Assembly (NCBI RefSeq): GCF_000344615.1
Contig: NZ_KB467824.1
Location: 5,034,523 to 5,098,522, forward strand
Direction of reading: 5' to 3'
Origin: Janthinobacterium sp. CG3
GTDB taxonomy: Bacteria; Pseudomonadota; Gammaproteobacteria; Burkholderiales; Burkholderiaceae_D
Length of the DNA stretch: 64,000 nt
Shown in pieces: positions 5,317 through 21,153 of the stretch (position 1 is its first letter; each line of letters opens with the position of its first letter). Below the pieces are notes generated by a model, which saw only the letters and a program-made list of their open reading frames with translations, had not been told where the DNA came from and made no database searches. A program made the translations under genes and the position numbers.

Positions 5317-6137
5317 TACCAATCCCCCGAGGCGCCGCCGCCGTCGAAACTGCCGCCGCCGCCCGAAAAGCCGCCGCCGCCCGAAAAGCCGCCGCCGCCC
5401 GAAAAGCCCCCGCCGCCGCCGGAAAAGCCGCCGCCACGGCTGCCCAGCGCGGCGCCCAGCAGGACGCCGCTGGCGTTGCGCGCCCAGCCGCCGCGGCGCG
5501 GGCCGCCGCGCGAACGGCGCAGCGCCGCCAGCGCCAGCGCGCCCAACAGCAGCAGCGGGCCCCAGAAGGTGGCGTCAACGTCTTCTTCCACGCTGTTGGC
5601 CGGCTTGCCCTGGGCGGCGGCTGGAAATTGTTCCTGGTTCAGCAGCGTGGCGATCGCGCCGACCCCGGCCACCAGACCGCCGTAGTAGTCGTTCTGGCGG
5701 AAATGCGGTGCGATCACGTCCTGCAGCACGCGCTTCGATTGCGCATCCGTCAGCACGCCCTGGACGCCGCGGCCGGCCTCAATGCGCAGGCGCCGCAACG
5801 CCGGCGGATTGTCTTTGGCCACCAATAACAGAACGCCGTCGTCGACGCCCTTGCGGCCCAGCTTCCAGGCGTCGGCGACGCGGATGCCGTATTGTTCGAT
5901 CGCTTCCGGCGCGGTGCTGGCCACCAGCAGCACGGCGATCTGGCTGCCGGTCTTGGCCTCGTAGTCGGCCAGCACGCCGTCGAGCGCGGCGCGCTGCTTG
6001 GCGTCGAGCATGCCGGCGTTGTCGGTGACGTGGGCGCGCACCGGCGGCACCGCCAGCAACGCCTGGGCGGCGCCCGGACCTGGCGCCAGGAAACCCAGCA
6101 CGCAGACGAGGCCGGCCAGCTTGCGCAGCATCGCCAT
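5316..6137 (-). CDS. YgcG-type TPM-domain protein with Gly/Phe-Ser tail
   Basis: A 273-residue exported membrane protein. Residues 1-25 are a signal peptide ending GAAQA. The TPM domain spans about 32-155 (VTDNAGMLDAKQRAALDGVLADYE... DDGVLLLVAKDN). A hydrophobic segment (FWGPLLLLGALALAAL) lies near 200. The C-terminus is a low-complexity tail of repeated GGGGFS units, ending GGGASGDW. The start ATG at 6137 lies two bases after the lemA stop, so this is an operon with tight coupling. Gly-rich tails on YgcG proteins are common, and their function is unknown. Confidence 0.87.
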   Translation of the reverse strand: MAMLRKLAGLVCVLGFLAPGPGAAQALLAVPPVRAHVTDNAGMLDAKQRAALDGVLADYEAKTGSQIAVLLVASTAPEAIEQYGIRVADAWKLGRKGVDDGVLLLVAKDNPPALRRLRIEAGRGVQGVLTDAQSKRVLQDVIAPHFRQNDYYGGLVAGVGAIATLLNQEQFPAAAQGKPANSVEEDVDATFWGPLLLLGALALAALRRSRGGPRRGGWARNASGVLLGAALGSRGGGFSGGGGGFSGGGGFSGGGGFSGGGGSFDGGGASGDW

Positions 6138-6139
6138 GC

Positions 6140-6757
6140 CTATTTGCCGAAGTTGACGGTGGGCGCGGTCGATATCGATTTTTCGTTCTCGACCGTGAAG
6201 GAGGGCTTGACCTGGTAGCCGAACGCCATCGCCGTCAGATTGCTGGGGAAGCTGCGCGCCAGCACGTTGTAATCCTGGACCGCCGCGATATAACGCTGGC
6301 GCGCCACGGTGATGCGGTTTTCCGTGCCTTCGAGCTGAGACTGCAGGTCGCGGAAGTTGGCGTTGGCCTTCAGGTCGGGATATTTCTCCGACACCACCAT
6401 CAGGCGCGACAGCGCCGACGACAGCTCGCCCTGCACCTGCTGGAACTTCTGGAACGCGGCGGGATTGTTGAGCACCTCCGGCGTGATCTGGAAGCTGGTG
6501 GCGGCGGCGCGCGCGCGCGTGACCGCCTCCAGCGTTTCGCGCTCGTGCGCGGCGTAACCCTTGACGGTGTTGACCAGGTTGGGAATCAGGTCGGCGCGCC
6601 GTTGGTACTGGTTCACCACCTCGCCCCAGGCGGCCTTGGTGGCCTCGTCCTTGCTTTGAAACTGGTTGTAGCCGCAACCCGACAGCAGGCTGGCGAGCGC
6701 GCCCAGCATCAGTATCAGGCGCATCCAAGGGGAAAAACGGTTTGCTGTGGTGGACAT
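6140..6757 (-). CDS. lemA: LemA family lipoprotein
   Basis: A 205-residue LemA protein. A short N-terminal stretch precedes a hydrophobic region with lipobox LLSGC, Cys28 being the probable lipidation site. The remainder is the long helical LemA domain, including the conserved VVNQYQRRADLIPNLVNTVKGYAAHE near residues 47-72. LemA proteins are anchored at the inner membrane or periplasm and occur with TPM proteins, as here; their function is unclear. An internal ATG at 6724 (MRLILMLG) would give a more typical signal-peptide start, and neither ATG has a strong ribosome site. It is the first gene of the three-gene lemA-TPM-TPM operon. Confidence 0.9.
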   Translation of the reverse strand: MSTTANRFSPWMRLILMLGALASLLSGCGYNQFQSKDEATKAAWGEVVNQYQRRADLIPNLVNTVKGYAAHERETLEAVTRARAAATSFQITPEVLNNPAAFQKFQQVQGELSSALSRLMVVSEKYPDLKANANFRDLQSQLEGTENRITVARQRYIAAVQDYNVLARSFPSNLTAMAFGYQVKPSFTVENEKSISTAPTVNFGK

Positions 6758-6916
6758 GGTGGTGGCGCTGCGCGCGCGTAAGGGACGAGCGATTAATATA
6801 CCCCAAACTGGGCAATTTCCCGCCGCCGGCCGCTGTTATATCGTGCGCGCCGCGGCGGCTTGGGCGGCCTTTCCGGCCGGCGGACGGTACAATATGGGGT
6901 TTGCAACCGAATAGAT

Positions 6917-6929
6917 AAGGCGCGCCGTG
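6917..6929 (+). promoter_or_regulatory. ribosome site deciding the GTG start of pyrF
   Basis: AAGG at 6917-6920 lies six bases before the GTG at 6927. No in-frame ATG is available near the conserved N-terminus, so GTG is the start. Confidence 0.6.
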
Positions 6930-7748
6930 AATTTCATCAATAAATTATCCGCCGCGTGGACGGCCAACGATTCGCTGCTGTGCGTCGGGCTGGACCCCGA
7001 CCTCGCCAAGCTGCCGCCGCAGCTGCGCGACCAGCCGGATGGCATTGTTACCTTCTGTACCCGGATCATCGACGCCACCGCCGACCTGGCGTGTTCGTTC
7101 AAGCCGCAGATCGCCTACTTCGCCGCGCTCGGCGCCGAGCGCCAGCTCGAGGACATTTGCCGCTACGCGCGCGAGACCTATCCGCATATCCCGCTGATCC
7201 TCGACGCCAAGCGCGGCGACATCGGCGCCACCGCGACCCAGTACGCGCGCGAGGCGTTCGAGCGCTACGGCGCCGACGCCGTCACCGTCAACCCGTACAT
7301 GGGCGCCGATTCGGTCGAGCCGTACATGGAGTGGGAAGACCGCGGCGTGATCATCCTGTGCCGCACCTCGAACCCGGGCGGTTCCGACCTGCAATTTTTG
7401 AATGTCGACGGCCAGCCGCTGTACCAGCACGTGGCGCGCCTGGTGGCGGAAAAGTGGAACAAGAACGGCCAGTGCGCGCTGGTGGTCGGCGCCACCTTCC
7501 CGCAGGAGCTGGCGCAGGTGCGCGCGATTGTCGGCGACATGCCGCTGCTGGTGCCGGGCGTGGGCGCCCAGGGCGGCGACGTCGCCGCCACGGTTGCCGC
7601 CGGCCAGACCGCGAACGGCATGGGCATGATGATCAACTCGTCGCGCGCGATTATCTACGCCAAGCCGGAGCAGGGCGAAGACTTCGCCGCCGCCGCCCGC
7701 CGGGTGGCGCTGGAAACGCGCGACGCCATCAACCTGTACCGCGCTTGA
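6927..7748 (+). CDS. pyrF: orotidine 5'-phosphate decarboxylase (long subfamily)
   Basis: Catalyses the last step of de novo UMP synthesis, decarboxylation of OMP to UMP, in the cytoplasm. The 273-residue length and the N-terminus (LCVGLDPD at 18-25) match the longer type 2 PyrF of actinobacteria and many betaproteobacteria rather than the E. coli type. The catalytic Lys/Asp cluster is intact: DAKRGDIG at 93-100. The FKPQ motif at 58-61 and NPYMG near 118 are also present. It starts with GTG. It stands alone, divergent from the lemA cluster and convergent with sbcB. A TACAAT at 6887-6892 is a possible -10. Confidence 0.93.
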
Positions 7749-7785
7749 ATGGGTTCGCGGCCCTGGACGGGCCGCGTACCGGCTT

Positions 7786-9234
7786 CTACTGGTGCTGCGG
7801 CGCCACCATCTCAACGTAATCGTACAGCGCGCCCAGTATCTGCTCGCCGCGCTCGTCGGCGGTTTCCTGCAATTGGTCGATTTCGCTGAACAGCAGATCG
7901 ACCGTGCGCGCCCCGGCGGCGCCTTGGTACAGGCGCGCGGCGCGGTGCTCTTCCCAACGCTCAAGCTCGACCTCGTTCAAGCTCGCCGGGAAATTGCGCG
8001 CGCGGTAGCGGAACAGCAGCTCTTGCAGGCGCTGGTCGGAAAACGACGGGCGCGCGCTGGCCAGGCGCTGCGGACTTTCCTTGCGTAGCGCGTCGAGCAG
8101 ACGGCGGTCGTCGTTGCCGATGAAGCCGCCGTACAAATCCTCGTCGACGTCCGGCGCCTCGGTCGCGCCGGGGCGCTGGAACACCTCGGCCCAGACCGCC
8201 GCCATGTCCGGCCCGGCCGCCGCCGTGGCGGCGTGGGCGCGCCCGGCCGCCAGGTCGATGCCCCAGCGCTCGGCCATGGCCGGCGACAGGGTCTTGAGGT
8301 TGCCTACCAACATAGGCGACTTGTTCAGGTGGATGCTTTTCACCGGCAGGCGCGTGACGCCCTCGGGCAGCGCGTCGCTGCGGGTGAACATGCGCGTGCG
8401 GATCGTCGCCGCGTCCAGCGTGAACAGCTCGGCCGGGTCGAAAGCGCAATCCCAGACGATCACCTCGTTCTTGTTGCTCGGGTGGGTGGCCAGCGGCCAC
8501 ACCAGGCCGATGCAGCCGCGCTCGGTCGGGAACATGCCCGACACGTGCAGGAAGGGCTGGCGCAGCGCCGGCGCCAGGCCCATGCCCATTTCGTCGGCGA
8601 CGCGGTCCTTTTTGTGCAGCGCGAAGCAAAAGTCGAACAGCTTCGGCTGCTTTTGCTTGATCAGGCGCGCCAGCGCGATGGTGGCGCGCACGTCCGACAG
8701 CGCGTCATGCGCCGATTCGTGCAACAGGCCGTTGGCCGCGCACAGGTGTTCCAGGCGGAAGCTTGGCTTGCCGTCTTCGCGCGTCGGCCACGCGATGCCC
8801 TCGGGGCGCAGCGCGTAGGTCATGCGCACCACGTCGAGCAAGTCCCAGCGGCCGCACTGGTGTTGCCATTCGCGCGCGTAGGGATCGATCAGGTTGCGCC
8901 AGAACAGGAAGCGGGTGACCTCGTCGTCGAAGCGGATGGTGTTGTAGCCGACGCCGATCGTGCCGGCCTTGGAAAAGGCTTTTTCGATGGTCGCGGCGAA
9001 CTGGTGTTCCGGCACGCCCCGCTCCAGGCACTGCTGCGGCGTGATGCCGGTGATCAGGCACGATTGCGGGTCGGGTAGGAAGTCGGGCGCCGGCTGGCAA
9101 TACAGCATGATAGGCTGGTCGATCTCATTCAGGTCGGCGTCGGTGCGGATCGCCGCGAACTGGGCCGGGCGGTCGCGCCGCGGCTGCACGCCAAAGGTTT
9201 CGTAATCGTGCCAAAGAAAGGTCTGGGTAGTCAT
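7786..9234 (-). CDS. sbcB: exodeoxyribonuclease I
   Basis: A 3'-to-5' single-strand DNA exonuclease of the DEDDh superfamily, acting in recombination and mismatch repair. The 482 residues match the family. Exonuclease motifs are visible: Asp10/Glu12 in HDYETFG, the GYNTIRFDDE segment at 96-105, and HDALSDV at 176-182 carrying the general-base His and the last Asp. The C-terminal exonuclease I domains (SH3-like and helical) fill residues about 200-480. It is monocistronic, with its start codon 170 bases from the divergent DUF5610 gene. Confidence 0.93.
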   Translation of the reverse strand: MTTQTFLWHDYETFGVQPRRDRPAQFAAIRTDADLNEIDQPIMLYCQPAPDFLPDPQSCLITGITPQQCLERGVPEHQFAATIEKAFSKAGTIGVGYNTIRFDDEVTRFLFWRNLIDPYAREWQHQCGRWDLLDVVRMTYALRPEGIAWPTREDGKPSFRLEHLCAANGLLHESAHDALSDVRATIALARLIKQKQPKLFDFCFALHKKDRVADEMGMGLAPALRQPFLHVSGMFPTERGCIGLVWPLATHPSNKNEVIVWDCAFDPAELFTLDAATIRTRMFTRSDALPEGVTRLPVKSIHLNKSPMLVGNLKTLSPAMAERWGIDLAAGRAHAATAAAGPDMAAVWAEVFQRPGATEAPDVDEDLYGGFIGNDDRRLLDALRKESPQRLASARPSFSDQRLQELLFRYRARNFPASLNEVELERWEEHRAARLYQGAAGARTVDLLFSEIDQLQETADERGEQILGALYDYVEMVAPQHQ

Positions 9235-9407
9235 CGTGATCGCTAAAAAAATTCGTGGCGCCCGCGCCGGACGGCGGCGTTTTATCGCGGGCGGCCTATA
9301 GTTTGTGGTGTTGTTGTCGTTATAAGCTGTGGGGGCTGCTGGTGGCCGGCGTAAATCCGCCCGTCGGCCCGTATGTTACACAGAATGCTCGTCCAAGGAG
9401 ACTTATC

Positions 9408-9983
9408 ATGTCAAATCCCTTATCCGTCAGCGGCGCCGGCAGTGCCGCCAGCGCCGCCGCGACCGACAAAGCCAAGTCGGCCGACGCCACGCCGGACATG
9501 GCGCCGCTTGAAAAAGCCCGGCTGCAACAGAACGCGGCGATCCTGCAAGCGTCCGTCAGCGTTGCCATCGGCTCGCAAAACGAACCGCTGTCGCTGCTGT
9601 ACAAGAGCGCCATCACCAGCATCAACGAAAAACTGCAGACGCAATATGGCCCCGACGCGCTGCAGGGCGCCGTCTCGCAAGACAACAGCGCGGAAGGCAC
9701 CGCCGAGCGCATTGTATCGTTGTCGACCGGGTTTTTCGACGCCTACAAGAAACAGCACCCGGGCGAGGACGAGGGCAAACTGCTGACCAAGTTCATGGAC
9801 ACGATACGCGGCGGCTTCGAATCGGGTTTCAAGGAGGCGAAGGATATCCTGCAGGGCTTGAAGGTGCTCAACGGCAATATCGCCAGCAATATCGATAAGA
9901 CCTACGCGCTGGTCCAGCAGGGTTACGCCGCCTTCGAGGCGGCCCGCAAGCCGGCGCCGGCGGACGCCGCCGCGCCGGCCTGA
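9408..9983 (+). CDS. DUF5610 domain protein
   Basis: A 191-residue cytoplasmic protein. From about residue 45 to 165 it carries the DUF5610 pattern: ILQASVSVAIGSQNEPLSLLYKSAI, then GPDALQ, TAERIVSLSTGFFDAYKKQHPGE, and an amphipathic segment FKEAKDILQGLKVLNG. The function of the family is unknown. The start is fixed by AAGGAG at 9395-9400, eight bases before the ATG; the frame is open further upstream without support. The N-terminal 40 residues and the last 12 are Ala/Pro/Asp-rich linkers. It ends three bases from the convergent GGDEF gene, so the two transcripts must overlap. Confidence 0.8.
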   Translation: MSNPLSVSGAGSAASAAATDKAKSADATPDMAPLEKARLQQNAAILQASVSVAIGSQNEPLSLLYKSAITSINEKLQTQYGPDALQGAVSQDNSAEGTAERIVSLSTGFFDAYKKQHPGEDEGKLLTKFMDTIRGGFESGFKEAKDILQGLKVLNGNIASNIDKTYALVQQGYAAFEAARKPAPADAAAPA

Positions 9984-9986
9984 CGA

Positions 9987-10952
9987 CTACAGCGCGGCGC
10001 GGTTGCGGCCGCCGTCCTTGGCGCGGTACAGGGCGGCGTCGGCGGCGGCGATCAACGCGTGCTCGTCCTGGCCCGGCGCCAGGCTGGCCACGCCGAACGA
10101 GGCCGTAACATGCGGCAACGGACTGCGCATGTCGGCGAACACCACCGCCTGCTGCATCCGCTCGCACAGGCGCTCGGCCACCAGCAGCGCCATCTTGGTG
10201 TTGGTGTCGGGCAAAATCACCATCATTTCCTCGCCGCCGTAGCGCACCGCGCAGTCGGTCGGGCGCAGCGCCGCGCTGAGCACCTGGGCCGCCGTGCGCA
10301 GCGCCTGGTCGCCGGCGACGTGGCCATGGCTGTCGTTGAAGCGCTTGAAATGGTCGAGGTCGATCATGATCAGCGACAGCGGCGTGTTCGCGCCGTGCGC
10401 GGTGGCCGCCATGGCCGGCAGCAAATCGTTCAACCAGGCCCGGTTGTACAAGCCGGTCAGGCCGTCGACCATCGACAACTGGCGATAGAACTCGCCGACC
10501 TTCTGGCGCCGGCGCAACTGCGCGTTGGCGGCGCGGATGCGGAAGGAGAGCAGGCGCAGCAGATTGCGCGCCAGCGCGTTCGAGGCGTCGATCAATTGCC
10601 AGACGAGCTTGCCGTCGATGACCAACAACTCGGTTTCCTCCAGCGCGGCGATGGCCGACAGGTTGCTTTCCTCGTCGAGCACCGATTGTTCGCCGACGCT
10701 CTCGCCCGGCAATACCTTGCTGAGCGTGCCGTCGGCCATGCCGGTCGAGGTGTCGGCCGCCACCGTCAGCGCGCCGCGCAACACGATGTACAGGCGGGCA
10801 CGGTGCGTATCCGTCATCACCTGGCCGGGCAGCAGGCGCACGATAGGGCAGGCCGCCAGCAAGGCGGCCACGGCGGCGTCGTCCGAATCGCGAAACAGCT
10901 GCAGATCGCCGATCTGGTAGCGGGAAGCGCCAAAACTACAGATATGTTCCAC
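9987..10952 (-). CDS. cyclic-nucleotide-binding-domain GGDEF diguanylate cyclase
   Basis: A 321-residue cytoplasmic signalling protein. Residues about 15-125 form a CRP-like cyclic-nucleotide-binding sensor fold (LPGQVMT..., LYIVLRGALTV, GESVGEQS). A linker helix leads to a GGDEF domain at about 160-320. The active-site signature is GGEEM at 239-243, with metal-binding Asp198/Asp200 in MIDLDHF and a canonical inhibitory RxxD at 230-233. It should make c-di-GMP, gated by the N-terminal domain. Met replaces the usual Phe in the fifth position. The start is GTG at 10952, with GAAGGT at the right distance. No EAL or output gene is adjacent. Confidence 0.87.
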   Translation of the reverse strand: MEHICSFGASRYQIGDLQLFRDSDDAAVAALLAACPIVRLLPGQVMTDTHRARLYIVLRGALTVAADTSTGMADGTLSKVLPGESVGEQSVLDEESNLSAIAALEETELLVIDGKLVWQLIDASNALARNLLRLLSFRIRAANAQLRRRQKVGEFYRQLSMVDGLTGLYNRAWLNDLLPAMAATAHGANTPLSLIMIDLDHFKRFNDSHGHVAGDQALRTAAQVLSAALRPTDCAVRYGGEEMMVILPDTNTKMALLVAERLCERMQQAVVFADMRSPLPHVTASFGVASLAPGQDEHALIAAADAALYRAKDGGRNRAAL

Positions 10953-11153
10953 AATAAGACCTTCAAAAAACCCGCGCCGGCCCACCACGTGGCCGCTGCG
11001 GCAATCATAACGCAAACCATGCCCAGCTGAAATATGCCACCGTGCAACTTTGCTCTTGACGCCAGATTGCCGCGCCGGCGCCGTTGAAAAGCGCTGGCGC
11101 CGCGCCGCGCCGGCGTGGTTCAATGGCAGCCACTTTGTTTTGCGGGAGACGCG

Positions 11154-11933
11154 ATGGAATGGATTGATGCGGTGGGAACGGCGCACGCGGCCGATGGCGC
11201 CGCGCGGATAGTCTCACTGGTGCCGTCGATTACCGAATTGTTGTGCGAGCTGGGCCTGGGGCCGCGAATCGTCGGACGCACCGGCTTTTGCATCCATCCG
11301 GCCGCGCAGGTGGCGGCCATCGCCAAGGTCGGCGGCACCAAGGATGTCAACCTGGCCAAGATCCGCGCGCTGGCGCCGACCCATCTGGTGGTGAATATCG
11401 ACGAGAACGAGAAGCCGACCGTGGCCGCGCTGGCCGAGTTCGTGCCGAATATCGTCGTCACCCACCCGCTCGCGCCGCGCGACAACTTGGCGCTGGCGCG
11501 TCTGCTGGGCGGCGTGTTCCGCGCCGGGGACAGGGCCGAAGCCTTTTGCGCCGCCTTCGAGGCCGAGTGGGCCTTGTTGCAGGCCGCGCCCAAGGGGCCG
11601 CCACGGACGCTGTTGTACTGCATCTGGCAAGACCCGTGGATGGCCGTCTCGCGCGACACCTACATCGCCAACATGCTGGCGCAGATCGGCTGGAGCGTGC
11701 CCGACCTCGGCGCGGCGCGCTATCCGCGCTTCGACTGGTATCCCGGACTGCTGGCGGGAATCGACGGCGTGCTGCTGTCGAGCGAGCCGTATCGCTTTAC
11801 CGAGGAGCATGTCGACGCGCTGGAGCGGCAGATCGGCAAGCCGGTGCAGTTGGTCGATGGCGAAATGATGTCGTGGTACGGCAGCCGTTCGCTGGCGGGC
11901 TTGCGCTATCTGCGCCAGTTGGCCGCAACGTAA
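11154..11933 (+). CDS. helical-backbone metal receptor / BtuF-like protein without signal peptide
   Basis: A 259-residue protein of the substrate-binding fold used for cobalamin and iron-siderophore uptake: RIVSLVPSITELLCELGLG at 19-37, GGTKDVNLAKIRALAPTHLVVN at about 63-84, and DGVLLSSEPYRF near 215. Transport receptors of this kind are exported, but here the conserved fold begins about 18 residues after the ATG with no hydrophobic leader. It therefore looks cytoplasmic as annotated. The ATG at 11154 has GGGAG upstream, and the frame upstream to 11115 offers no signal peptide either. No ABC permease or ATPase is adjacent. Confidence 0.78.
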   Translation: MEWIDAVGTAHAADGAARIVSLVPSITELLCELGLGPRIVGRTGFCIHPAAQVAAIAKVGGTKDVNLAKIRALAPTHLVVNIDENEKPTVAALAEFVPNIVVTHPLAPRDNLALARLLGGVFRAGDRAEAFCAAFEAEWALLQAAPKGPPRTLLYCIWQDPWMAVSRDTYIANMLAQIGWSVPDLGAARYPRFDWYPGLLAGIDGVLLSSEPYRFTEEHVDALERQIGKPVQLVDGEMMSWYGSRSLAGLRYLRQLAAT

Positions 11934-12054
11934 AGTGGGGGGAGGGCGGTACTGGATGCGCGCGATGCAACGGGCGCAACGGGCGCAATAGGATGCGGCA
12001 GGGAACTTGACTGGCGGCCTGGAACGGCCGCCAGCACCTTTGCGCGCTAGGGTG

Positions 12055-12432
12055 TTACTCGTTTACTTCGTCGGCTTCGACGTCGGCGGTCGCGGGAATT
12101 TTGCCGCTGGCGTGGCGCTTGCTGTCGTGCAGTCGTCCGAGCGCGCTATCGATGGCGCGTTTGAGTTTTTCCGCCGCACCGGCAATGGCCTGGTGCAGGG
12201 TGGCGGCGTGGTCGCTGACGGCGATCGGCTGGTAGCCGGTAATGCGCGCTTCCATCAGGCAGCGATTGTCGCCGTCGACCGATTTCTGGCTGTTGTTGTC
12301 GCTCAGGTGTACTTCGACGCGGGTGATGTTTTCGCGGAAACGGCTGATGGCTGATTCAACTACGGACTGCACGTGCTGGTCCAATCCTACGTTGCGTTCG
12401 ATGGTGCTGTCGGTATTGATATTGATTTGCAT
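12055..12432 (-). CDS. HPF/RaiA-family ribosome-associated protein
   Basis: A 125-residue protein. The beta-alpha-beta-beta-beta-alpha pattern of the S30AE/HPF domain is visible: MQININTDSTIERN, then VVESAISRFRENITRVEVHLSDNN, then RCLMEARITGYQPIAVSDHAATLHQAIAGAAEKLKRAIDSALGRL. Members bind the 30S decoding region and help ribosome hibernation or stress survival. The short form lacks the dimerisation domain of long HPF. The start is the ATG at 12432, with CGGAGTG upstream. It is a single gene; a stress-type role is inferred from the family only. Confidence 0.78.
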   Translation of the reverse strand: MQININTDSTIERNVGLDQHVQSVVESAISRFRENITRVEVHLSDNNSQKSVDGDNRCLMEARITGYQPIAVSDHAATLHQAIAGAAEKLKRAIDSALGRLHDSKRHASGKIPATADVEADEVNE

Positions 12433-18314: not shown

Positions 18315-18501
18315 ATCTCTTCAATAATCACAAAAATGTCGCAAGTTAAGCAAAAACTAACAATTACGTGTATTATGTGGCGTACTTGTTAAAAGCCGTA
18401 CAAATGACAGGTGGTTTTTGGCGCGTTTCCATGAGTTCTAGCAAGGTTAGGTGTTCTGGCGCCAAATTTTTGCAAAAATACAACAAAGTTCGGGTTCAAT
18501 C

Positions 18502-18741
18502 ATGACTATCAAACAAATCACAGCACTGCCTACCTACAATCCAAATCGCGTTTTGGATGCGATCATTGAAAAGTTGCAGTTGAAAAACGACGCGGCCCTG
18601 TCGCGCGCACTCGAAGTGGCGCCACCGGTCATCAGTAAAATCCGCCACAACACCTTGCCGATTGGCGCGACCATCTTGATCCGCATGCACGAAATCAGCG
18701 ATTTCAGCATTCGTGAACTGCGCGAATTGATGGCTGCGTAA
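18502..18741 (+). CDS. small Cro/CI-like HTH protein, 79 aa
   Basis: A 79-residue putative DNA-binding protein. LKNDAALSRALEVAPPVISKIRHNTLPIGATILIRMHEISD has the length and pattern of a lambda-repressor-like helix-turn-helix, where DAALSRAL is helix 2 and PPVISKIR the recognition helix. The tail SIRELRELMAA is short. I recall proteins with this N-terminus (MTIKQITALPTYNPNR) as a multi-copy family in Oxalobacteraceae. There is no adjacent target operon that would reveal its role. The ATG at 18502 is the family start; the frame upstream to 18451 lacks support. A partial FNR-like dyad lies 190 bases upstream. Confidence 0.72.
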   Translation: MTIKQITALPTYNPNRVLDAIIEKLQLKNDAALSRALEVAPPVISKIRHNTLPIGATILIRMHEISDFSIRELRELMAA

Positions 18742-19346: not shown

Positions 19347-20129
19347 CTAGCGTTGCTTGCTCAATACCGGACGTTCCGTGTAAAACCGGGTTTGCTCGGC
19401 GGTGACCGCCGCGCTGGAAAAGGCCGTGGCCGGCGCCCGGCTGGAGAACGCCGTTTTCACGGAGGCGCTGGAAAACGCGGTGCTTACCGCCGCGCTGGAA
19501 AACGCCGTCGTTTGCACCGCTGCGCTGGAGAATGCGGTGGCTGGCGCTCTGCTGGAGAATGCCGTTTTCACGGCGGCGCTGGAAAATGCCGTTTTCGCCG
19601 AGGCGACGGCGGCGCTGGAGAATGCGACTGCCGGCGCACGGCTGGAAAAGGCGACTGCCGGGGCGCGGCTGGAGAACGCGGTTGTAGTTGCGGCGCTGGA
19701 GAAAGCGGTTTCCGGCGCGCCGGCCGCTTCCATCGCCGCTGCCGAGCGAATATAGTCTTCGCCAAACGTCTGCTCGTACAGTTCCTTCATCCGCTCGCCG
19801 ACGCGTTGATGCGCTTCCAGATCGGCTTCGCCGCGCAATCCCACATACGGGAAGTGGTGCAGGAAATAACCAAAGACTTCCTCGCAATCGACCGCGTATT
19901 TCATCGTGTCCAAAATATGGTAATGCCAGAACGTGTCGACGTCGAACAGCGGCGCGGTGGCCTCGGACGGGAAAATTTTCATCAGGTGCAGAAAGCGGCG
20001 GTACTCAAACTCGACCGCGTTGACCTTTTCTAGCGACCAGCCCTCGCCGGACTCCTGATGCATCAGTTTTACTTTGATCGGATCCAGATCCAGATTGGCG
20101 ATGGCTTGGAAGTTGTCGTTCGAGTTCAT
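19347..20129 (-). CDS. GRDP-like domain protein with 9-residue TAFSS repeat tail (protein A)
   Basis: A 260-residue protein with two parts. Residues 1-130 form a conserved domain with DVDTFWHYHILDTMKYAVDCEEVFGYFLHHFPY at 63-95; the W-H-x-H-I-L pattern resembles the glycine-rich-domain-containing (GRDP-like) family, first described in plants. Residues 141-242 are eleven repeats of TAFSS followed by AAV or RAPA, with Phe at 143, 152, 161, 170, 182, 191, 200, 210, 219, 228 and 237, mostly nine residues apart. The end is TRFYTERPVLSKQR. A paralogue with a different tail lies 352 bases away. There is no signal peptide. The function is unknown; structural or modified-peptide roles are speculation. 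A promoter lies 180 bases upstream. Confidence 0.72.
   Translation of the reverse strand: MNSNDNFQAIANLDLDPIKVKLMHQESGEGWSLEKVNAVEFEYRRFLHLMKIFPSEATAPLFDVDTFWHYHILDTMKYAVDCEEVFGYFLHHFPYVGLRGEADLEAHQRVGERMKELYEQTFGEDYIRSAAAMEAAGAPETAFSSAATTTAFSSRAPAVAFSSRAPAVAFSSAAVASAKTAFSSAAVKTAFSSRAPATAFSSAAVQTTAFSSAAVSTAFSSASVKTAFSSRAPATAFSSAAVTAEQTRFYTERPVLSKQR
19404..19709 (-). repeat. 27-base coding repeats (11 units) in GRDP-like gene A
   Basis: Tandem coding repeats of about 27 bases, each specifying TAFSS plus four variable residues. Two unit classes alternate (AAV-type and RAPA-type). Two units are longer, at 36 and 30 bases. On the plus strand the units read GCGCTGGAGAA(T/C)GC and near variants. 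Confidence 0.8.
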
Positions 20130-20248
20130 GAGTGATAATCCTTTGGATAATGGGCCGTTAGGGAATAAAGATGAAAACGTGAAGCTGTTTGCCGCTATCG
20201 GTGATCTAGCGCTGTATGCGACATGCCCGATATCTGCATACCGCTAAA

Positions 20249-20262
20249 TTGACTTGGATAAA
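20249..20262 (-). promoter_or_regulatory. degenerate FNR-like dyad in leader of GRDP-like gene A
   Basis: Plus-strand TTGACTTGGATAAA matches the reverse complement of the 2578-2591 dyad at 12 of 14 bases. It lies 120 bases upstream of the ATG and downstream of the TATACT promoter. No -10 is spaced for activation, so the evidence is weak. Confidence 0.25.
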
Positions 20263-20308
20263 ATGTTGTGTTAAATAAAATTTTTTGCAAGTTGTTGCGT
20301 GACAACTC

Positions 20309-20341
20309 TTTTAGTATATGCATTGTCGTTGCGAAATCAAT
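20309..20341 (-). promoter_or_regulatory. sigma-70-like promoter of GRDP-like gene A
   Basis: On the minus strand TTGATT, a 16-base spacer and TATACT. It gives a leader of about 170-180 bases before the ATG at 20129. The same arrangement, with nearly the same -10 context, precedes the 56-residue gene. Confidence 0.55.
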
Positions 20342-20448
20342 CAAAATTTCAACACTAATTGCGATGGGGTAATATTTTCAGTGGCGGGCGAGGGCGGTGA
20401 CGGGCTGGGAGAGCCGCGCGTTGAAGGCTCAGTGGCGGGCGTAGCGAC

Positions 20449-20473
20449 TTCGGAGCCTGTGCGGCTCCGAAGT
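20449..20473. terminator. strong hairpin after GRDP-like gene B
   Basis: CTTCGGAGCC-TGTGC-GGCTCCGAAG is a perfect 10-bp stem with a five-base loop. It begins nine bases past the stop of gene B on the minus strand. The T-rich side (TGTTGTTTATT) is on the plus strand, so it could instead stop rightward transcription. Confidence 0.5.
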
Positions 20474-20481
20474 GTTGTTTA

Positions 20482-21153
20482 TTAGCCTGAAATTGGCAGG
20501 CTAGGGCGCTCCGAGTAGAAGCGCGCGCGTCCGCTCAGGTCTTCCGTTGGGGCCGACTGGACTGCCCCGTCGATCGCCACACGGGCCGACCAGGCCGTTT
20601 GCGGCGCCGCGGCACCGCCGTCGAGCGTGGCGCGGGCCGACCAGGCCGTTTGCGGCGCGGCGGCGGCGCCGTCGAGGGTGGCGCGGGCCGACCAGGCCGT
20701 TTGCGGCGCGGCGGCGGCGCCGTCGAGGGGCGCGCGTGCAGACCAGGCCGCCTGAGTCGGCGCGCCGGCGCGGAGATAGTCCTCGCCGAAGGTTCCTTCG
20801 TACAATTCGCGCATGCGCTCGCCTTGGCGTTGGTGCGCTTTTTCGTCGGCCTCGCCGCGCAAGCCGATATAAGGGAAGTGGTGCATGAAATGGCCGAAGA
20901 TCGCGTCGCAATCGGCCGAGTATTTCATCGTGTCGAGAATATGGTAATGCCAAAATGTGTCGACGTCGAACAATGGCGCGGCTTGCTCCGTCGGATATTG
21001 TTTCATCAAAATCAGGAAGCGGCGATATTCAAATTCGACCGCGTTGGCCTTCTCCAGGCTCCAACCCTCCCCCGATTCCCGATGCATCAACTTTACTTTG
21101 ATGGGGTCCAGATCCAATTCTGTAATTGTCTTGAAATTGTCGTTTGCATGCAT
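20482..21153 (-). CDS. GRDP-like domain protein with 17-residue TAWSA repeat tail (protein B)
   Basis: A 223-residue paralogue of protein A. Residues 1-128 are nearly colinear with A: NDNFKTITELDLDPIKVKLMH, then ESGEGWSLEKANAVEFEYRRF, then DVDTFWHYHILDTMKY and HHFPYIGLRGEAD. The tail differs: four 17-residue units of the form TAWSARATLDGAAAAPQ, with Trp at 137, 154, 171 and 188, then ARFYSERPSLPISG. Thus a TA(W/F)S core and a terminal RFYxERPxL are shared although period and filler differ. The ATG at 21153 has AAAGGA upstream. A perfect FNR/Anr box lies about 140 bases upstream. The function is unknown, as for A. Confidence 0.72.
   Translation of the reverse strand: MHANDNFKTITELDLDPIKVKLMHRESGEGWSLEKANAVEFEYRRFLILMKQYPTEQAAPLFDVDTFWHYHILDTMKYSADCDAIFGHFMHHFPYIGLRGEADEKAHQRQGERMRELYEGTFGEDYLRAGAPTQAAWSARAPLDGAAAAPQTAWSARATLDGAAAAPQTAWSARATLDGGAAAPQTAWSARVAIDGAVQSAPTEDLSGRARFYSERPSLPISG
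20551..20757 (-). repeat. 51-base coding repeats (4 units) in GRDP-like gene B
   Basis: Four tandem 51-base units encode the 17-residue TAWSAR... repeats. The two central units are almost identical in DNA, which suggests recent duplication or gene conversion. The outer units are diverged. Confidence 0.8.

Follow-up and report, generated by a model that had tools for sequence, protein, structure and literature searches.

The window analyzed here, a stretch of 64,000 nucleotides from Janthinobacterium sp. CG3 (contig NZ_KB467824.1, positions 5,034,523 to 5,098,522), contains two neighboring paralogous genes, A and B, whose products join a GRDP-like domain to a repetitive C-terminal tail. Both genes and all their parts lie on the minus strand, with B upstream of A. 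Gene A (19347..20129) encodes 260 residues, the domain being followed by eleven AFSS cores, and gene B (20482..21153) encodes 223 residues with the same domain and four AWSAR cores. A first-pass annotation had described two paralogues of these lengths sharing a domain of 128 residues; its coordinates are exact, and the two domains (residues 1-128 in each protein; 19746..20129 in A and 20770..21153 in B) are 78% identical. A search of the strain's genome found A and B to be the only two matches of their kind.

In protein A, the cores start at residues 142, 151, 160, 169, 181, 190, 199, 209, 218, 227 and 236, within a tail spanning residues 141-244 (19398..19709). Eight of the ten intervals measure 9 residues, one 12 and one 10, and two of the units read VAFSS, the rest TAFSS; the eleven nine-residue TAFSS units of the annotation are thus right in number but too uniform in spacing and sequence. 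In protein B (tail residues 135-203, 20545..20751), the cores at 136, 153, 170 and 187 are spaced exactly 17 residues, or 51 nucleotides, apart, so that both the number and the period had been given correctly, although the first unit is AAWSAR and not TAWSAR. TRF detects both arrays at the DNA level. The tails contain no cysteine, and both proteins close with the RFYxERPxL motif that had been noted, as RFYTERPVL in A (residues 248-256, 19362..19388) and RFYSERPSL in B (residues 211-219, 20497..20523).

In a Pfam scan with E ≤ 1, PF07173 (GRDP-like) was the sole match for A (18.8 bits) and B (20.8 bits), in both cases under the gathering score of 22.7; the BURP domain was not matched, nor was the TIGR04222 domain in an NCBIfam scan at the same limit. 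Four of ten scanned relatives passed the PF07173 cut-off (L037 23.4, L038 25.0, L153 26.6, L155 25.4; locus numbers refer to our collection). Judged by these profiles, the domain has diverged from PF07173 and, though related, stands outside formal Pfam membership. AlphaFold2, run on residues 1-134 of protein A with 83 alignment rows, predicted an all-helical domain with a predicted local distance difference test (pLDDT) of 89.8 and a predicted template-modeling (TM) score of 0.85. In a Foldseek search against BFVD, where both sides are predicted models, the top match was a GRDP-like protein of Harvfovirus (TM 0.73/0.71, E 2e-4), and the other top viral neighbors were GRDP-like and uncharacterized giant-virus proteins. 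The GRDP-like assignment of the annotation is therefore borne out by the sub-threshold score, by relatives above the cut-off and by the viral fold match. A search of the domain profile against the sequences of solved chains gave no match at E ≤ 1. Beyond the domain, residues 142-239 of protein A were predicted at pLDDT <50, and the tail is probably disordered, to judge from this model; a low-confidence helix (residues 240-251) lies at its end, beside RFYTERPVL.

Among 100 diverse GRDP-domain proteins, Asp65, Trp68, Tyr78 and His92 (numbering of A) are invariant, His69, His91 and Pro94 are conserved at 96-99% and Cys82 at 93%. The D..W-H ... Y ... H-H-x-P residues common to the collected GRDP-domain proteins are also present in A and B, where protein A reads D65, W68HxH71, Y78, C82 and H91H92xP94. 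As far as such an alignment can indicate, the set of conserved Asp, Trp, His, Tyr and Cys residues looks like an active or metal site.

Counting the window's own genome, 33 of 37 genomes of the genus contain a homologue; three of the four without one (G014, G022, G027, G034) are less than 90% complete. At E ≤ 0.001, homologues were found in 69 of 195 genomes of the family, 56 of 349 of the order, 25 of 274 of the class and 29 of 398 of the phylum, many of the distant matches in these wider samples being other kinds of GRDP-domain protein. A homologue of A in Janthinobacterium fluminis has 93% identity in the domain.

To compare tails, we used 100 proteins from 78 loci, drawn from the best 80 of 499 relatives and hence biased to close kin, together with A and B; 21 of the 78 loci hold two or three paralogues. 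The occurrences of A[FYWH][SC] in each tail were counted against the maximum of 200 residue shuffles. All 102 tails, including both from the window, exceeded this maximum, with 931 cores in total as against 38 expected from the shuffles. The aromatic or histidine position is occupied by Tyr in 542 cores, Phe in 203, Trp in 120 and His in 66, the third position by Ser in 796 and Cys in 135, and the residue that follows is mostly Gly (697). The conserved core is A-[F/Y/W/H]-[S/C]-(mostly G/A/S), and the TA(W/F)S proposed from the two window proteins was too narrow. The layout of a constant domain and a variable tail, as annotated, recurs in all 102 cases, but the regular spacing does not generalize: distances between cores range from 6 to 25 and the period is not conserved. 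The annotation had staked its proposal on homologues keeping the core and the RFYxERPxL end; in these closest 78 loci no tail lacks the core (0 of 102), and 85 of the 86 Ser-type tails have an end of this type, as do 3 of the 16 that are of the Cys type.

Within one gene the units resemble each other; paralogues, and also close relatives, have different ones. The unit of B, with period 17, is TAWSARATLDGAAAAPQ; those of its nearest domain relatives are TAFSTRVAADAKPQ in J. fluminis and TAFSVRVAEDVAAQ in another Janthinobacterium. In A, the third positions of the Ala and Phe codons vary between units and the Ser-Ser codons TCC AGC are identical in all eleven, which puts the array somewhere between a fresh and a fully diverged one; the cores of B are near-uniform, with two distinct DNA cores among four. 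Across the sample, third positions of core codons, which are conditioned on the search pattern, differ in 34-56% of within-gene unit pairs. The fourth residue played no part in finding the units and is free of this conditioning; it differs at codon position 3 in 38.5% and at positions 1 and 2 in 4.5%. Since third positions vary while the core amino acids stay, the arrays appear to be partly old and kept by selection on the protein sequence. They are also partly homogenized, a reading that the constant Ser-Ser codons of A fit. Plain slippage as the whole story was rejected in view of the variation at third codon positions under constant core amino acids.

Nearly all of 27 further proteins of the same family have the same layout. 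Their units are of the Cys type (AWCTRT, AYCGAA, AFCGIVKPPKQ, AYCMIRPD, AYCSSPGKP and others) or of the Ser type (AFSAAPG, AYSMP); the exceptions are L298, a protein of 94 residues with a single core, and L268, which repeats L108. Three divergent GRDP proteins of the family (L162, L163, L292) have no such core array, and the stretches L293 and L294 contain no open reading frame (ORF) with the searched motif.

The exchange of Ser and Cys mostly affects the whole array. Most tails are of the Ser type, with Cys found in 2 of 86 of these, and many Massilia-type tails, such as one with an AWCGRAP array, are of the Cys type; mixed arrays occur in L086 and L108. We traced the Ser/Cys label on a tree of 137 domains, 6 of them without a state, which was built from 129 columns, few for so many rows, and which carries long-branch warnings and leaves 70 of 127 inner branches open. 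The best tree has five changes, or four without the mixed L108/L268, and its starred branches force at least two; L108 is Cys-type by core count and Ser-type by the wider pattern of the tree, and L268 shares its domain and tail. All Cupriavidus rows, all Variovorax rows and eight rows of the Oxalobacteraceae family placed with Variovorax are of the Cys type. L081_7049 and L110/L111 are Cys-type proteins inside mainly Ser-type groups, with modest support, and have kept the FYxxRPxL end. L086 is a metagenome-assembled genome labeled Streptosporangiaceae with two Oxalobacteraceae-like repeat-tailed GRDP genes, whose cores mix Ser and Cys; this contig is probably mis-binned.

GRDP-domain proteins outside the repeat-tailed group were collected as a set of 103 distinct proteins, from which same-family loci were left out by list, yet L162, L163 and L292 are included, and a few rows (L227, L236, L145) are cut at a contig end or look broken. 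At least two cysteines in the last 30 residues are found in 63 of these 103 proteins, against 41 of 458 control ORFs taken from these loci. The annotation had called the combination of domain and tail an unusual design; this holds for the multi-core A-aromatic-Ser/Cys form, but a low-complexity, usually Gly/Cys-rich C-terminal tail is, by this count, common. Eight loci from IMG/VR (L221-L228) encode a relative and seven of the eight have Cys-rich Gly/Ser/His tails, two of them identical in the match region. In L179, a GRDP-type N-terminus is combined with a TIGR04222 domain (121.8 bits) and a Gly/Cys-rich tail.

In several other cases the cysteines are located in a small ORF beside the GRDP gene. 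In Stanieria, an ORF of 43 residues just downstream carries AAFCFL, AGFCFL and RPSI. Small ORFs with the ending [G/S]HCQGxGxW are located on the 5' side of the GRDP gene in Halomonas, in two Pseudomonas savastanoi plasmids and in L284, which is from the window's order; the pattern, which was picked after seeing the cases, occurs in 4 of 21,156 small ORFs. A leader-like segment of the LLxEIFxxPSN type is common to the small peptides of L153, L155 and L159, whose ends contain Cys; the peptide of L152 is similar by eye, yet does not match the leader-like pattern. No such Cys peptide was recognized beside the GRDP genes of L035, L128 and L259. Specific cases, then, suggest at the sequence level that domain and peptide may be split.

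Some of the distant relatives are found in enzyme-rich surroundings. In L034 (Azospirillum ramasamyi, 5956-12354), the GRDP gene forms an operon-like run with genes for a methyltransferase, a TauD and a UvrA-like protein, and in L291 (217-7183) with genes for a TauD, a methyltransferase, a pentapeptide and a UvrA-like protein. Known self-resistance proteins for compounds directed at DNA or gyrase include pentapeptide and UvrA-like ones, and both runs look like biosynthetic clusters with self-resistance genes. A TauD dioxygenase is also encoded beside short-tailed GRDP genes in L285, where the UvrA-like call is based on an ABC match and length only, and in L150; a gene for an S-adenosylmethionine (SAM) methyltransferase, the type encoded in L034 and L291, lies near the Stanieria GRDP gene; and in L149 (7793-9139), a pentapeptide-repeat gene directly follows a GRDP gene ending in CPNCGRR...RPSF. 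The tail-less GRDP gene of Halomonas adjoins an exporter-like gene (MatE 20.2 bits, under the cut-off of 24.9), whose counterparts in L039 and L035 have no Pfam match.

For the repeat-tailed genes, we surveyed the neighborhood at the 78 loci, with flanks of up to 8 kb on each side, some shorter, reading the 40 most shared gene families by eye. The census shows a conserved syntenic chromosomal region, in which the most shared families, again named by eye, include a histidine-kinase-like family (64 loci) and glnS (49 loci). In agreement with the annotation, no adjacent modification enzyme was recognized at these loci, by eye or by phmmer for MNIO and YcaO. The annotation had taken this as an argument against a simple operon for a ribosomally synthesized and post-translationally modified peptide (RiPP); the gap stands, but tail-less GRDP genes beside Cys-peptide ORFs and short-tailed genes in biosynthetic-looking runs in other bacteria re-open the question.

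The genetically encoded peptides of known bufferin/MNIO and TOMM/YcaO RiPPs carry cores with Cys (or Ser/Cys). A and B differ from them in having no linked MNIO or YcaO, in the genome or in the collected flanks, and no cysteine core. The single MNIO of the genome (PF05114) is encoded about 57 kb from A and B and the single YcaO 3.3 Mb away on the contig. Single-query phmmer searches of 7,938 ORFs from the other collected loci gave no relative of either. Genomes of the family matched MNIO in 115 of 195 cases; six in which GRDP was matched at about 1e-27 or better are outside these 115 (G726, partial, G751, G763, G818, G828, G851). We therefore rejected MNIO as the partner of A and B, given that the sole genomic copy belongs to a separate operon and that six GRDP genomes have no MNIO match. 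The operon itself (L230, 4234-6948) lies about 13 kb to the right of the window end and is of the bufferin type, with a Cys precursor, an MNIO-type protein of 557 residues with an extra C-terminal part and a DoxX-like protein, the MNIO being called by Pfam and the rest by eye.

These comparisons establish that the domain is related, in profile and in fold, to the GRDP-like family, that the core is conserved, that arrays switch between Ser and Cys, and that the domain is associated with Cys-containing tails. Building on them we favor, tentatively and with somewhat less than even confidence, the interpretation that A and B are RiPP-like, self-contained fused precursors, in which the GRDP domain handles a multi-core peptide tail. 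The N-terminal domain would bind the disordered C-terminal array in cis as its substrate and might itself modify it chemically, at the cores A-[aromatic or His]-[Ser or Cys]-(mostly G/A/S). Asp65, His69, Tyr78, His91 and His92, together with Cys82, would form its active site, as their conservation suggests, and the FYxxRPxL end could be an element for recognition or release. In other bacteria, the domain would be either fused to a Cys-containing tail or split from a neighboring small ORF for a Cys peptide.

Several observations weigh against this interpretation. Near the repeat-tailed genes at the 78 loci we recognized no modifying enzyme, no protease and no dedicated exporter, and we know of no product or modification. 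A fold search of the domain model against the PDB gave no match at E ≤ 0.001 and hence no catalytic precedent. Position 71, His in A, is Phe in 32 of the 100 aligned GRDP-domain proteins, which weakens the case for a strict four-His metal site. Among the 103 outside proteins, 40 do not have two cysteines at the end. In a blind test, an adjacent small ORF with two cysteines turned up at 9 of 18 GRDP genes without a tail, at 7 of 28 fused genes and at 122 of 404 controls, a difference that is not significant, so that the split arrangement rests on specific peptide patterns chosen post hoc. Finally, the enzyme-rich runs occur in distant relatives, whose Cys ends are short, and not beside the repeat-tailed genes.

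A serious rival, unlikely as we consider it, is that the tail is unmodified and of the sticker-spacer kind: the core aromatics would act as stickers and the Ser/Gly/Ala/Cys runs as spacers in self-assembly or condensation, which the domain would cap or nucleate. This takes up the polymerizing protein that the annotation had suggested. The very low prediction confidence of the tail is typical of disordered tails, the aromatic varies freely among F, Y, W and H at spacings of 6 to 25, no linked enzyme was recognized at the 78 loci, and an exchange of Ser and Cys would be easily tolerated in a mere small neighbor of the aromatic. Stickers, however, would not need the Ala before and the Ser/Cys after the aromatic, which are kept throughout, if partly by virtue of the pattern used to find the units, and the small Cys peptides and TauD/methyltransferase runs of relatives would go unexplained.

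Alternatively, an unlinked enzyme (MNIO/DUF692, YcaO or another) might modify a RiPP-like precursor in trans, the GRDP domain being the recognition leader only, which seems improbable to us. Such a role could fall to the one MNIO or the one YcaO of the genome, and the L179 relative is a TIGR04222 protein, of which subsets with Cys-rich ends are described as putative MNIO substrates in PMC12452194; the location of the MNIO in a bufferin-type operon some 57 kb away, the six strongly matching GRDP genomes not among the 115 with MNIO, the absence of both enzymes from the 7,938 ORFs searched and the lack of cysteine in the window tails all argue otherwise. We regard it as still more doubtful that the proteins are polyproteins in which each core is cleaved between the aromatic and Ser/Cys (or between Ser/Cys and Gly), freeing many short signaling or killing peptides. 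The array layout, with units uniform inside a gene but not across paralogues, would fit this, and the constant part would serve as the cleavage site, but no linked protease or exporter was recognized in the clade (78 loci), inspection by eye showed no signal peptide, and no released peptide is known. A thiol tail for metal binding or redox (storage, buffering), degenerate in the Ser-type proteins, is very improbable: the Gly/Cys/His-rich tails of relatives and the Cys type of the repeat-tailed rows nearest the outgroup, in a tree with long-branch warnings, would fit it, but Ser-type arrays keep the core without thiols, 2 of 86 having any Cys.

Three other known systems come close to A and B. 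Plant AtGRDP2 (GRDP-like/DUF1399, PF07173) has a related domain, as indicated by the sub-threshold profile and the viral GRDP-like fold match, and its C-terminus is likewise a glycine-rich domain, in which cysteines are scattered (PMC4299439); it differs in its length of 787 residues and a putative RNA-binding motif, and in the available portion of that study its Gly-rich tail is not described as an A-aromatic-Ser/Cys array. TIGR04222 membrane proteins, subsets of which are putative MNIO substrates (PMC12452194), share with the GRDP group at least the L179 protein with its GRDP-type N-terminal region and Gly/Cys-rich end, whereas A and B have neither a TIGR04222 match nor a linked MNIO. In plant burpitides, the BURP domain, a copper-dependent peptide cyclase, and its multi-core substrate form either one fused protein or a split pair (PMC12186524). 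The resemblance would be one of logic and not of homology, with a domain fused or split, a multi-core substrate with aromatics and several conserved histidines; A and B, known here from sequence and predicted models, have no BURP match, and their His71 is not invariant.

The plant study describes DUF1399 as having no known function (PMC4299439), and the bacterial data give this domain a concrete partner, a Cys/Ser-containing tail or a neighboring peptide. With many different units around one constant core and with Ser/Cys switches, the arrays of Oxalobacteraceae amount to a natural library. If the domain does modify its own tail, this would be a bacterial fused/split peptide-modification system and could point to what the domain does elsewhere. 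A literature search over titles and abstract openings, with most subscription journals outside its coverage, found bacterial GRDP-like proteins nowhere treated as peptide precursors or enzymes. More speculatively, and in our estimate unlikely, the GRDP-like domain of bacteria, giant viruses and plants may constitute an undescribed class of peptide-modifying domains that acts in cis or trans on aromatic-Cys/Ser cores, which Oxalobacteraceae have turned into fast-diversifying multi-core precursors that switch between Cys and Ser array-wide.

Next to the repeat genes, on the plus strand of the window (18451-18741), lies a gene for a small protein (IKQITALPTYNPNRVLDAIIEKLQLKNDAALSRALEV...) that is helix-turn-helix-like by eye; its family was called in 23 of the 78 loci.

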